Shown: positions 1,407-14,169 of the stretch, piece by piece
Layout of the letters: every line of letters begins with the position of its first letter
How positions within the stretch are numbered: the first letter of the stretch is position 1
Origin: Thermoplasmata archaeon
Lineage (GTDB): Archaea > Thermoplasmatota > Thermoplasmata > Thermoplasmatales > Thermoplasmataceae
Direction of reading: 5' to 3'
Length of the DNA stretch: 54,607 bases
NCBI GenBank assembly: GCA_021809755.1
Contig: JAJZJZ010000004.1
Location: 1-54,607 of the forward strand
The notes under the pieces: generated by a model
Told to the model about the DNA's origin: nothing
Seen by the model: the letters and a program-made list of their open reading frames with translations, nothing else
Database searches by the model: none
Position numbers and translations under genes: made by a program

Positions 1407-2330
1407 TCATTCTGGTTTGTCAACTTTATCTGCAAAAGACAGGAACATTTTCCATCTTGGGAATTTTTCAAAAGTGTTGAATAGCAGTGAGTAAAATTCT
1501 GTGCTACTGACTTCAGGAACTATAAAACCCATTGAAAACATTCGACCATCCAACTTCTGGGGCAGCGCAAGAATCGGAATACCAATTTCTGCAGCTTTCG
1601 ATGAAATATATTCAACAACTTCATTCCTAAATTTAGTTTCAAATATATGTTCCGCAGAACTAATTTCATTGATACTGGGATCGCCAACTTTCAATAAACC
1701 ATGTCTATCCCTGAAAACGGCGCTAATTTCACCATCAGTGATATACCTTATTTGTCTGTTCCACCCCATTCCAAGGATCTGAACTATTGGATCCTTCCTT
1801 ATATCGACAGCTTCTGGTGGAATTTCAGAGGTAGCTTCGATATAGTCAATGTTGGTAATCTCCGCCACTCTCCTGAACATGTCGAGTATTCCTTCAGCCT
1901 CTCCTAGGTAATTAACTTTAAAATCCTTTAATTTGGCCGATACCTCAGCAATCAGGCTAGACACAAATTTCAAATGAACGCTGTGAAATCTGAAAAAGAT
2001 GTTAGTTACCCCATTTATATTGATTAGTGCATCAATTACAACGGAGTTTGATGAAATAAGCTTCTTGTGTAAGGTAAATAGGGCAGAATTTGTTATATCT
2101 TCTGAAGAAGAGTAAAAAAGATCATGCTCCTTGAGCGTGGTCTCAGATTTTAAAAAGTCGTTTCCTTTCTTTGGAATATTTAGAATTAATATTCCCCTTT
2201 CTCCTTGCATTTTAATTCTTCCAATAGATATAATATCTTTACCGGTTAGTATGCCCGATGTATTATCTTCAGTTACAAATTTCAGTTGGCATCTTTTATC
2301 TAAAACTCTATGAAAGTCTTTTATGATCAT
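1407..2330 (-). CDS. Hypothetical protein, 307 aa
   Basis: I do not recognise a family. The protein is soluble, with a mixed alpha/beta pattern. The N-terminal part (residues 1-60) looks beta-rich with an IGRIKMQGERGILILNIP segment. A helical middle (about 110-165) is followed by an alpha/beta C-terminal region in which Trp and Gly residues (ILGMGWNRQIRYI) may form a core motif. There is no signal peptide or membrane span, and Cys is nearly absent. It lies in the same direction as the ComA-like gene (stop at 2467) but 136 bases apart, so it probably has its own promoter. Codon and base use match the neighbours, so it does not look recently acquired. Confidence 0.55.
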   Translation of the reverse strand: MIIKDFHRVLDKRCQLKFVTEDNTSGILTGKDIISIGRIKMQGERGILILNIPKKGNDFLKSETTLKEHDLFYSSSEDITNSALFTLHKKLISSNSVVIDALININGVTNIFFRFHSVHLKFVSSLIAEVSAKLKDFKVNYLGEAEGILDMFRRVAEITNIDYIEATSEIPPEAVDIRKDPIVQILGMGWNRQIRYITDGEISAVFRDRHGLLKVGDPSINEISSAEHIFETKFRNEVVEYISSKAAEIGIPILALPQKLDGRMFSMGFIVPEVSSTEFYSLLFNTFEKFPRWKMFLSFADKVDKPE

Positions 2331-2466: not shown

Positions 2467-3444
2467 CTATCTTACGAATGAATAAATTTTTCTTCTTAGG
2501 TCTCTGATATCTGTGTTTTCCTGAATCAAATTAGCGTGCAGAAGTTCCATCAAAGCTTTTTGTACAGTTCTTCTGCTGAGTCCAGTGGCATTTATCAGGC
2601 TACCCTGGTCAATTTTGACAGAGTTCTTGATTATATGCAAGACAAATTTTGTAGCAGGGCTCCCTTCAAAAAGTTCCAGGTGTCTGTCCATACTGAATGT
2701 ATCTCCTCGTAATGATAACCTTTGACTGGCAAGGGAAGCAATGGAGTCCATTGAAATATTCCCTAAATTAATTTTTTTGCCGTATCTAAGAATGAGCTCA
2801 ACCTGCTGTTTTTCCATGGGCGCCTCAATCATTACCTTTTCATGACCGGTATATTCCACTATGGAATCAGCCCATTCCCATTTAATATTACCAAGTTCGT
2901 CATAAATTTCTACACCTTTTCCAGTCTCTCTTCCTTCTATAATAATCATCTCTGGATTAAATTCCAATGCTTCACCTATTTTGTCAATGGTCTCATTTAG
3001 GGTAAGCTGCTCCGCCTTCCTTTTTTTCCCGACTTCCATTATAAGAATCAGATCGTTAGATGATGCAAATTCTGCAGCTATTTTTCTTTCCTTCTTTGGA
3101 ATATTGCAGACGCCTTCACTTATTTCTATATAATTGAAGCCGGAACTTTTTAGTAATTTTAGCCCTTTTTCTAACTTTCCCTTTACAAAGCAAGTTTCGA
3201 GAAAAGTTCCGCCGTTACTGACACCGATTCCATAGGATTTAATCTGGGAAATTCTATTACTTAGGGAGTTCGTATCGGTTAAAAAGGAAAGCCCCCATCC
3301 TATCTTAACGTAGGTTACAAATGTAGATAGTAACTTTAGAATGCTTAAATCTCTAGACAATCTATCAATAACCATTGTTTTGCCTATACCTTCCGTTAAC
3401 TCTACTTCAATATCTGAAATATCTGATCCATAGAAATTTTGCAT
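2467..3444 (-). CDS. ComA-like phosphosulfolactate synthase with C-terminal winged helix
   Basis: ComA enzymes add sulfite to phosphoenolpyruvate to make phosphosulfolactate, the first step of coenzyme M synthesis; plant HSA32 proteins share the fold. Numbered from the upstream GTG-less frame start at 3510, the ComA signatures are VKIGWG (68-73), GVSNGGTFLE (96-105), EISEG (129-133), MEVGKK (158-163), IIEGRETGKG (190-199), EAP (229-231) and LRGDTF (267-272). ComA normally ends there. This protein continues with about 70 residues, in which 285-347 read as a winged helix-turn-helix (GLSRRTVQKAL recognition helix). I chose the ATG at 3444 (residue 23 of the longer frame) because the preceding residues have no ComA counterpart and a TATA-like stretch lies 17-26 bases before it. 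It is divergent from the sulfate-reduction genes. A methanogenic role is unlikely here; a sulfonate enzyme or a sulfite-sensing regulator are both possible. Confidence 0.75.
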   Translation of the reverse strand: MQNFYGSDISDIEVELTEGIGKTMVIDRLSRDLSILKLLSTFVTYVKIGWGLSFLTDTNSLSNRISQIKSYGIGVSNGGTFLETCFVKGKLEKGLKLLKSSGFNYIEISEGVCNIPKKERKIAAEFASSNDLILIMEVGKKRKAEQLTLNETIDKIGEALEFNPEMIIIEGRETGKGVEIYDELGNIKWEWADSIVEYTGHEKVMIEAPMEKQQVELILRYGKKINLGNISMDSIASLASQRLSLRGDTFSMDRHLELFEGSPATKFVLHIIKNSVKIDQGSLINATGLSRRTVQKALMELLHANLIQENTDIRDLRRKIYSFVR

Positions 3445-3556
3445 GTTTTCAGGGGGTCGTATACTTATATCTGTATTTAATTTTACTATAAATACGCAAA
3501 TATTACACATAAATTAACTAACAATAAGAAATTTAGGCAAGTTAAAATCAGCTTGT
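3445..3556. promoter_or_regulatory. Divergent promoter region, comA-like / cysH
   Basis: This 112-base AT-rich region separates the two divergent sulfur genes. A perfect inverted repeat TTAACT (3514-3519) / AGTTAA (3540-3545) with 20 bases between the arms lies just before the reductase start, and CAAGTT/AGCTTG (3538-3555) forms a second, imperfect dyad. A TATA-like CTATAAATAC lies at 3486-3495. These are candidate operator and promoter elements; the winged helix fused to the ComA-like protein is an obvious candidate binder, but that is inference. Confidence 0.35.
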
Positions 3557-4246
3557 ATGAATCAAGTCTATGGCGATGAAACATTGTGGAAAATCCTCGA
3601 GGCATCTAAAGATACCTTCGGAGATGATATAGTCTTTCTGTGCAGTTTCAGCAATGAAGATATGATAATCTTAGATTCACTGTGCAGAAATAAGATAAAT
3701 ATTGATACATATACAATAGATACCGGAAGATTAAACCCCGAAACATACGAATTTATTGATGAGATATCAAAGCGTTATGAAATTAAGCTGAACTATTTAG
3801 TGCCTGAGAGTGTGCCACTTCAAACAATGCTTTTACAAAACGGCCCTCAACTATTTTATGAAAGCATTGAAAAGAGAAAATTATGCTGTAAAATCAGGAA
3901 AGTAGATCCACTTTCAAAGTTGTTATGTGGTAAAAAAGCTTGGATCTCAGGAATAAGATCCACTCAGACGGAGGAAAGGAAAAGATCCAAGATGTATGAA
4001 AACACAAACGGATTGACGAAGATTAATCCACTAATAGAGTGGACAGACGAGAAGGTAAATGCAGTTATTCAAAACCTAGGAATACCCTCAAATAGACTTT
4101 ATGACAAGGGATATAGGAGCATAGGTTGCCAACCCTGTACCAGACCTGTTTTTCCTGGAGAAGGAGAAAGGGATGGAAGATGGTGGTGGGAAAATGGGTC
4201 CAAAGAATGTGGCATTCACACATCAAATTTCGGTGACTCTCAATGA
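3557..4246 (+). CDS. cysH: APS/PAPS reductase, assimilatory
   Basis: This enzyme reduces adenylylsulfate (APS) or PAPS to sulfite in the cytoplasm. It has the PP-loop nucleotide-binding fold at the N-terminus (about 20-60). The iron-sulfur type is shown by paired cysteines Cys110-Cys111 and Cys191-Cys194 and by the catalytic-tail motif ECGIH with Cys218. The CC...CxxC pattern binds a 4Fe-4S cluster and is typical of enzymes that use APS. At 229 aa it is normal for the family. The stop overlaps the start of ATP sulfurylase (ATGA), so the two are translationally coupled and act in sequence: sulfate to APS to sulfite. Only the substrate choice (APS or PAPS) is uncertain; no APS kinase is seen nearby, which favours APS. 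Confidence 0.92.
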   Translation: MNQVYGDETLWKILEASKDTFGDDIVFLCSFSNEDMIILDSLCRNKINIDTYTIDTGRLNPETYEFIDEISKRYEIKLNYLVPESVPLQTMLLQNGPQLFYESIEKRKLCCKIRKVDPLSKLLCGKKAWISGIRSTQTEERKRSKMYENTNGLTKINPLIEWTDEKVNAVIQNLGIPSNRLYDKGYRSIGCQPCTRPVFPGEGERDGRWWWENGSKECGIHTSNFGDSQ

Positions 4247-5424
4247 TACCCCCATATCATGGTGGTTCTAGGGTCAAAATTCCAGATCTGCAAAATTCAG
4301 GATTTGATGTTTTACCAAGAGTGGTTATAGATGAGCGTATCTATATTATTCTAAGTTTGTTAAAGATCGGAATTCTTAGTCCAGTCGATTCATTTCATAA
4401 TTATGAGGAAACAATGGAAATATCAAGCGAGGGGAGAATGTTGAATGGCCTGGTCTGGTCCATTCCAATTCTTCTTCCTGTCAAAGAACATGAATTATAT
4501 GGATTTATGGAAGGTGATGACATCGCACTGGAATTTAATAATAAGATCGTTGCAATCATGCGAGTAGGAGAAAAGTTTTCCCTCGATATATATGAATATT
4601 GTCAGAGAATATTTGGTACAATAAATCATGATCATCCTGGGGTAAGAAGTACACTTGAAAAGGGAAATAAATTTGTTTCTGGCCGTATTAAAGGAATCAG
4701 TAATTATGATACACATTTTTCATATTTGCAACCCGATCCAGATAAACTTAGAGAACTGTTCAATATGAGAGGTTTTAAAACGGTGACTGCATTTCAGACA
4801 AGAAATCCTCCTCATAGGGGGCACGAATTCCTTCATAAATATTCTCTACTCTCTACAGACGCCTTATTCATAAACCCTGTCTTGGGACCAAAGAAGAGTG
4901 GAGACTTTTCAGATCAGGAGATATTCCAATCTTATCGCGTATATCTCGAAAAGTATTTGCCCAGGGAGAGAACCATTCTTATGCCACTTATTTATGCAAT
5001 GCAATATGCAGGACCAAAGGAGGCAATAATGCACATGATTATGAGAAAAAATTTGGGATGTACCCATTTTGTCATAGGAAGGGATCACGCGGGAGTTGGA
5101 ACATTCTATAGTCCTTACGCTGCAAGGGATTATGTTATGACATTTACGGATATAGGAATTCAGCCAGTTTTTCTGAAGGAGGCATATTACTGTAAGGTTT
5201 GTGCAGAAATTTCAAATGATGATATATGCCCACACGATGACTCTCATAAGATCCACTTTAGTGGGACAAAGATTCGTTCCTTATTTCTAGAAAGAAAGGA
5301 ACCATTACAATTTGAAATGAGGAGTGAAATATATAACAAAATTGTTGAAATCCGATCAGTAAAGCAAAACTCTCTTGAAATACCAGAAGAAGGTCTATTT
5401 GACAGATCACCAACTGTTGAATAG
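4243..5424 (+). CDS. sat: ATP sulfurylase (sulfate adenylyltransferase)
   Basis: It makes adenylylsulfate and pyrophosphate from sulfate and ATP, the activating step for sulfate reduction. The signature motifs are QTRNPPHRGH (185-194) and GRDHAGVG (279-286). A zinc-ribbon-like CKVC...CPH cluster (317-331) is the metal site typical of archaeal and thermophilic forms. At 393 aa it matches stand-alone archaeal enzymes without a fused APS kinase domain. The ATG overlaps the cysH stop by four bases. Together with cysH it forms a two-gene operon; no sulfate transporter is seen next to it. Confidence 0.95.
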   Translation: MIPPYHGGSRVKIPDLQNSGFDVLPRVVIDERIYIILSLLKIGILSPVDSFHNYEETMEISSEGRMLNGLVWSIPILLPVKEHELYGFMEGDDIALEFNNKIVAIMRVGEKFSLDIYEYCQRIFGTINHDHPGVRSTLEKGNKFVSGRIKGISNYDTHFSYLQPDPDKLRELFNMRGFKTVTAFQTRNPPHRGHEFLHKYSLLSTDALFINPVLGPKKSGDFSDQEIFQSYRVYLEKYLPRERTILMPLIYAMQYAGPKEAIMHMIMRKNLGCTHFVIGRDHAGVGTFYSPYAARDYVMTFTDIGIQPVFLKEAYYCKVCAEISNDDICPHDDSHKIHFSGTKIRSLFLERKEPLQFEMRSEIYNKIVEIRSVKQNSLEIPEEGLFDRSPTVE

Positions 5425-13199: not shown

Positions 13200-13302
13200 T
13201 TTTTTAAATCGTTAAAGAATATAAAAAGCTCTCTCATATGTGAATGAATTTGTACACCATGGAAAGGATACAAATATTAACTCATGATTAATAACTATCA
13301 AT

Positions 13303-14169
13303 ATGATAGTTAATAGAAAATTATTGAAGGTAATTCAAGCGCAGAACACCTTGGACGGGGCTGGTGTAAAATTAAATAGAGCATTTTCTTATTATGTCGA
13401 GCCACTTATCGATCCTTTCCTGATGATGGATAATTTTAATTCTGTTGATCCTGAATCATACATGGCAGGGTTCCCCTGGCATCCTCACAGGGGTATTGAG
13501 ACCGTAACTTATATTCTTAATGGGGAAATTCAACATGAGGACAGCACGGGAAACACTGGAAAGATCAGCTCTGGAGATACTCAGTGGATGTCAGCGGGCA
13601 GTGGAATTATTCATCAGGAAATGCCTCAACTAAATAGAGACGGAATCAGTGGTTTTCAGATTTGGGTTAATCTTCCTGCGGCTAAAAAAATGTCAACGCC
13701 CAGATATAAAGATTTGAAAAGGGATAGTATTCCTGAGTCATACATGGAGGACGTGACATTCAAAATCATAACCGGTAGCCTGAATAATGAATCTAATCTT
13801 GCCTTTGCAATTAAAGCTGACACAGCCATATTTGACGTGAACGTTCCACCCGAACGTGAAATATCTATACCAATAAAATCCGGCTACACAGCTCTCATTT
13901 ATGTATACGAAGGGGCAATCAATATTGGTGACGAACATCGGAGAATAATTAAAAATTCAACGGGAGTTCTTGATAGAATCGGGGAAAATATATTATTATC
14001 TACCGGTGAGGAAGGAGGTAAATTTGTCCTGCTTACTGGAAAGCCACTAAATGAGCCAGTTGCTTGGAGAGGGCCAATTGTGATGAATTCATGGAATCAA
14101 ATAGAATCCGCTTATAGGGAACTTAACAACGGTACATTTCTGAAACATAAGGATGTGGAAAACGAATAG
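13303..14169 (+). CDS. Pirin-family cupin protein
   Basis: Pirins are bicupin metalloproteins; some bacterial members are quercetinases or bind regulators. The N-terminal cupin contains the metal ligands in HPHRGIE (about 63-69) and IQHEDSTG (about 83-90), plus SAGSGIIHQE that closes the site, all typical of pirins. The C-terminal half (about 150-288) is the second, degenerate cupin ending with GKPLNEPVAWRGP. The length of 288 aa is normal. A TATA-like CAAATATTAAC lies about 27 bases upstream of the ATG. It stands alone between divergent and convergent genes. The cellular substrate is unknown. Confidence 0.9.
   Translation: MIVNRKLLKVIQAQNTLDGAGVKLNRAFSYYVEPLIDPFLMMDNFNSVDPESYMAGFPWHPHRGIETVTYILNGEIQHEDSTGNTGKISSGDTQWMSAGSGIIHQEMPQLNRDGISGFQIWVNLPAAKKMSTPRYKDLKRDSIPESYMEDVTFKIITGSLNNESNLAFAIKADTAIFDVNVPPEREISIPIKSGYTALIYVYEGAINIGDEHRRIIKNSTGVLDRIGENILLSTGEEGGKFVLLTGKPLNEPVAWRGPIVMNSWNQIESAYRELNNGTFLKHKDVENE

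Follow-up and report, generated by a model that had tools for sequence, protein, structure and literature searches.

A ComA-like enzyme fused to a winged helix beside cysH and sat is probably a built-in sensor and switch for sulfite production in acid-loving archaea

The window analyzed here, a stretch of 54,607 nucleotides from a Thermoplasmata archaeon, contains a gene in which a ComA-like barrel is joined to a C-terminal winged helix-turn-helix (wHTH), transcribed divergently from cysH and sat. We consider it likely that the product is an enzyme-derived regulator that has its PEP/sulfite site intact and binds a dyad between comA and cysH; DNA binding, the ligand, the sign of the control and catalysis are all inferred. 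In these acid-loving archaea, the fusion would probably be the built-in sensor and switch that governs how much sulfite is made. A first-pass annotation of this DNA had claimed a ComA enzyme with a winged helix, facing cysH and sat across 112 bases. The domain order, a ComA barrel and then a wHTH-like tail of ~63 residues, was borne out and is conserved in relatives, and both the gap and the identities of the two facing genes (Pfam, PRK02090) were likewise recovered (Table 1).

The gene lies in a minus-strand open reading frame of 347 aa at 2467-3510. Since relatives align from M23, the start is likely at 3444, giving a protein of 325 aa and a gap of 112 bases to cysH at 3557. The nearest named relative is E-plasma, with 84% protein identity to the window fusion. 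Downstream of comA lies a Ta1207-family gene (PF19020, window 1407-2330), which at that place the window has in common with E-plasma alone.

Table 1 Features of the comA/cysH/sat locus, in window coordinates
Feature	Position	Strand	Basis
ComA-wHTH fusion protein, 325 aa	2470..3444	-	Pfam, NCBIfam and PDB matches; frame open from 3510; stop codon 2467-2469
ComA-like (beta/alpha)8 barrel domain	2698..3384	-	PF02679 match, residues 43-270 of the 347-aa frame
C-terminal winged helix-turn-helix, about residues 284-347	2470..2660	-	Recognition helix with RRTVQ; profile and fold matches
comA/cysH divergent intergenic region	3445..3556	.	112 bases
Predicted operator, imperfect dyad TACGCAAATATTACACATA	3493..3511	.	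Motif search, leave-one-out scan; no binding data
cysH, APS/PAPS reductase, 4Fe-4S type	3557..4246	+	PF01507 6.5e-39, PRK02090 5.2e-68; CC, CxxC and ECGIH motifs
sat, ATP sulfurylase	4243..5424	+	PF01747 6.6e-75 and PUA_2; 4-base overlap with cysH

The ComA identity of the N-terminal part was confirmed by domain family, structure and active-site residues. The barrel matched PF02679 with an E-value of 1.1e-57 (195.7 bits against a gathering score of 25.2), and its closest PDB match was the crystal structure of M. jannaschii ComA (1QWG, E 7e-43), to which it has 39% identity across 217 aligned residues; the equivalog cut-off of TIGR03849 (arch_ComA) was not reached (206 bits vs 280). At 27 of the 33 residues that are invariant among 31 fusions, the M. 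jannaschii enzyme is identical, including Lys137, which corresponds to Lys163 of the 347-aa frame and is the catalytic lysine proposed in the 1QWG work. Four residues in the numbering of that frame, W211, W213, E233 and G250, are invariant in the fusions and differ from M. jannaschii ComA. Judged from sequence, the PEP/sulfite active site is kept in the fusion barrel and catalysis itself is inferred; with the site kept, sensing of the former substrates by the protein would be the simplest explanation.

For the C-terminal domain, the window protein matched the NCBIfam MsvR model at 2e-5, the best match being to the N-terminal wHTH of MsvR, and a PDB profile search returned MarR-family regulators. 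Curated cut-offs were not reached by the window domain (28 bits vs 220 for MsvR, 16 vs 24.6 for MarR), and across the homologues 28 of 31 matched MsvR and 29 of 31 matched Pfam MarR_2. The wHTH identity rests on individual E-values that are weak, yet consistent across 31 homologues, and on a predicted fold. An AF2 model of the C-terminal domain, built with four homologues, gave a three-helix HTH core at pLDDT 77-90 with a poorly resolved wing, so that the winged-helix reading was not refuted, as the lack of a predicted fold would have done. The nearest folds to this model were MarR/ArsR structures, with a best E of 0.2 and none reaching 0.001; the full-length protein modeled without an alignment had a mean pLDDT of 37 and was unusable. 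The recognition helix has the form R(R/K)T(V/T/L/I)Q in every full-length family homologue, RRTVQ and its flanking residues are nearly invariant, and few parts of the protein are as conserved as this predicted helix.

Homologues were sought in 101 relatives, 61 of them genomes of the window's own family. The fusion was found in 31 of these 61, 30 times near full length (some of these interrupted in draft contigs) and once only as the C-terminal part, where a contig ends, and the wHTH is present in every full-length family homologue. Class- and phylum-wide searches added two further families of the same class (f14 and f15), whose examined members have the same extension, and a single fusion outside it, L164 (G409), from another class of the same phylum; the ComA proteins of families f27 and f38 and of one f14 genus do not have the extension. 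Absence of the extension from all close homologues, together with a comA/cysH pairing that is not conserved, would have overturned the original reading; those close homologues that were inspected have the extension, and the pair is conserved. A second ComA-HTH copy in G325 (L120:6703-7689) lies away from cysH, adjoins a small Ras-like GTPase gene and reads AGENV in place of RGDTF.

In L164, catalytic-site residues have been lost (EVGKK to KAGRK, EGRE to EAAD, and RGDT altogether) and the HTH is intact, from which it seems that the DNA-binding part can persist after catalysis is lost and that this protein may be a pure regulator. This raises the question of whether the barrel of the fusion is catalytically dead throughout, a ligand sensor only (for sulfite, PEP or another sulfonate) within a regulator, which we regard as unlikely. 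Besides L164, such a reading can draw on the four invariants that set the fusions apart from M. jannaschii ComA and on the altered RGDTF motif of the second G325 copy. It has to contend with the proposed catalytic lysine and most active-site residues being invariant in 31 diverse fusions, and the L164 sequence is just one 2.4-kb piece from one MAG.

The 112-base divergent gap contains a conserved site, TAYGYAAATATTRC, to which nothing else in the 54.6-kb window is equal. A motif search of 27 non-redundant intergenic regions returned TAYGYAAATWTTRC-like sites with a log-likelihood of 100.8, compared to 49.5 +/- 2.5 for dinucleotide-shuffled sets, which take no account of shared descent. When the site was learned from the other loci only (leave-one-out), the best site in the window gap fell at 3493-3506, with the dyad extending to 3511, and was unmatched in the remaining 54 kb; the best intergenic site was likewise unequalled in about half of the loci, and the number of sites of equal quality expected by chance was below 0.1 for 24 of 26 loci. 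In two genomes, G033 and G035, the motif is kept upstream of a solitary comA that cysH no longer adjoins, having moved away or disappeared; an autoregulator would be expected to show this. In f15, the family motif was not found consistently in front of comA and mostly not found at all.

The window site lies between both promoters, just upstream of an AT-rich stretch that, read from its letters, resembles the cysH TATA region; the motif is itself rich in A and T, and one clade has it overlapping the likely TATA region of comA. Repression and activation are both possible. The inverted repeat TTAACT/AGTTAA, which had been pointed out in this gap at the outset, does exist (3514-3519 and 3540-3545), but the 84%-identical E-plasma locus no longer has the second arm, and the repeat is not significant because 121 bases contain eight short inverted repeats of comparable quality, this one included. 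It was rejected as the operator, being not conserved; the conserved element is the dyad at 3493-3511. Elsewhere in the window, a TTAACT-N25-AGTTAA inverted repeat occurs at 13277-13313, for which the chance expectation in the window is 0.01.

Presence of comA and the 4Fe-4S-type CysH is tightly coupled: of the 61 family genomes, 29 have both, two have comA only, none has cysH only and 30 have neither (Fisher 2e-15, not corrected for descent). Exceptions to the side-by-side arrangement are G033, with cysH-sat on another contig, and G035, where this CysH was not found. Carriers and non-carriers are mixed in eight genera, so the cassette has been gained or lost as a block. Conservation of the neighborhood is confined to comA, cysH and sat (32, 30 and 27 loci), any flanking gene family being present at no more than 5, and no dedicated partner gene besides cysH and sat was found around the family loci. 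In G009 (L064:9357-13821), cysH and sat, divergent from an interrupted ComA-HTH gene, are followed by genes for an NIR_SIR protein and for a tetrapyrrole methylase, which in this family look like a set leading from sulfate to sulfide. As the cassette there takes in a sulfite reductase along with the methylase, the association tracks the pathway.

Of the f14/f15 carriers that were checked, about half have a CysH match, and among the carriers of f15 about half are without this CysH. Several f15 genomes have the fusion next to cysH, and in others its neighbor is sat, APS kinase, a phosphodiesterase or a TauE-type gene; at L108:8483-9445, L105:6405-7043 and L114:7673-8839, the place of cysH is taken by an exporter of the TauE type, an APS kinase or an ATP sulfurylase. 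TauE-type proteins are a sulfite exporter family. The frequent lack of cysH in carriers of the f15 fusion is what would be expected if the fusion controlled other genes, such as sulfosugar or redox genes, and its proximity to cysH-sat were merely historical. We give this very little credence against the joint presence and absence with cysH, the eight mixed genera and the lack of any other conserved family neighbor.

The cassette is predicted to turn sulfate into sulfite via Sat and CysH. CC/CxxC pairs mark APS-type reductases, and because this CysH has them, APS kinase would not be needed. No sulfite reductase (PF01077, NIR_SIR) was found in 27 of the 31 carriers, several of them >95% complete; where a MAG is incomplete, such a gap carries less weight than it does in a complete genome. 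The other four have one, as paired DsrAB-like subunits in G002, G035 and G041 and downstream of sat in G009. The sulfate assimilation named in the first-pass annotation is therefore, in most of these genomes, not the classical route to sulfide, and reduction of sulfite to sulfide was rejected for most carriers. Coenzyme M synthesis was also rejected as the role of ComA, since no ComD (TIGR03845) scored over the cut-off in the 61 family genomes, whereas 2 of 14 control genomes did.

Of 37 family genomes searched for UDP-sulfoquinovose synthase (SQD1/Agl3), 35 have it, whether or not they also carry the cassette; that of the window genome is at L150:1195-2370 (G000:C106; SQD1 match E 8e-110). 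Sulfite is the donor for this enzyme (PMC4388408), and a sulfosugar in Thermoplasma glycans is cited in PMC12421959. As most carriers have UDP-sulfoquinovose synthase and lack sulfite reductase and ComDE, the sulfite from CysH would feed sulfosugars, and the role of CysH is probably, by inference, to supply sulfite for sulfonates and sulfosugars and not for cysteine.

This setting also bears on whether the fusion is a plain metabolic enzyme that turns CysH sulfite into (R)-phosphosulfolactate for a sulfonate product, its HTH being an oligomerization or protein-interaction module that does not bind DNA. All key ComA residues are kept, comA adjoins its sulfite source and a ComB-family phosphatase (PF04029) is found in nearly all family genomes. 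However, the search of 101 genomes found the phosphatase equally often in genomes without ComA, and its role in the family is therefore probably a different one. The ComD result counts against such an enzyme too, with two control genomes over the cut-off as noted, and so do the highly conserved predicted recognition helix and the conserved site in the shared promoter. We therefore doubt this reading, although a working enzyme without any regulatory role could equally be expected beside cysH, which counts against the regulator model.

In the regulator model, which we prefer, the C-terminal winged helix would bind the dyad between comA and cysH and control both promoters, and sulfite from Sat and CysH (with PEP), or the adduct phosphosulfolactate, would fill the barrel and change DNA binding. 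With a sulfite-consuming enzyme opposite sulfite-making genes, feedback repression by sulfite (and PEP) would be the most economical circuit, and we lean slightly towards it over activation. The barrel may still catalyze, draining excess sulfite as phosphosulfolactate, which would make the protein a true trigger enzyme. The sulfite-responsive switch first suggested for this locus has gained support from the locus-specific site, the strict co-occurrence and the site kept upstream of comA, but its role is still inferred and its operator is a different one. More tentatively, and short of an expectation, the fusion may be a direct archaeal sulfite sensor, in which a coenzyme M biosynthesis enzyme with a winged helix controls a pathway that ends at sulfite for sulfonates and sulfosugars, the barrel both reading and removing sulfite.

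Enzymes acting as regulators are already known, as with the fungal PAPS reductase A of Tuber (PMC4848566), and no published description of a ComA-HTH fusion was found in the literature searched; ComA is not mentioned in a survey of archaeal fusions (PMC11237513). Nor was a transcription regulator that senses sulfite directly reported in the literature searched. A 2023 study of E-plasma described sat and cysH, which provide two of the four steps of assimilation, as acquired and did not settle whether the genes are functional (PMC10354927); the cassette gives a testable answer, that the pathway is meant to end at sulfite. Sulfite is toxic and must be dosed, and the cassette would come with a controller of its own, an enzyme that reads sulfite. 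Because intact active sites occur alongside apparently decayed ones, it also offers a compact system for the study of enzyme-to-regulator evolution.

Compared to methanogen ComA, the (2R)-phospho-3-sulfolactate synthase, the fusion has the same barrel with Lys137 kept, but it adds the C-terminal wHTH, does not reach the TIGR03849 cut-off, and no ComD partner was found for it. Its predicted wHTH best matches those of MsvR and MarR regulators, below the curated cut-offs, and sits behind an enzyme barrel, while theirs are combined with V4R or a MarR dimer domain. Agl3/SQD1 also consumes sulfite and is near-universal in the family; it is not linked to the cassette, is the likely sink for CysH sulfite and is no relative of the fusion. 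BirA, PutA and NadR are trigger enzymes, in which an enzyme is combined with a DNA-binding or transactivation part and controls its own pathway. The fusion differs from them in fold and substrate, in its fused archaeal wHTH and in having no experiment behind it, and on the evidence of sequence alone it would show two traits of the class, an intact enzyme domain fused to a DNA-binding domain and a conserved candidate site, at which binding is inferred, at the promoter of its own pathway.
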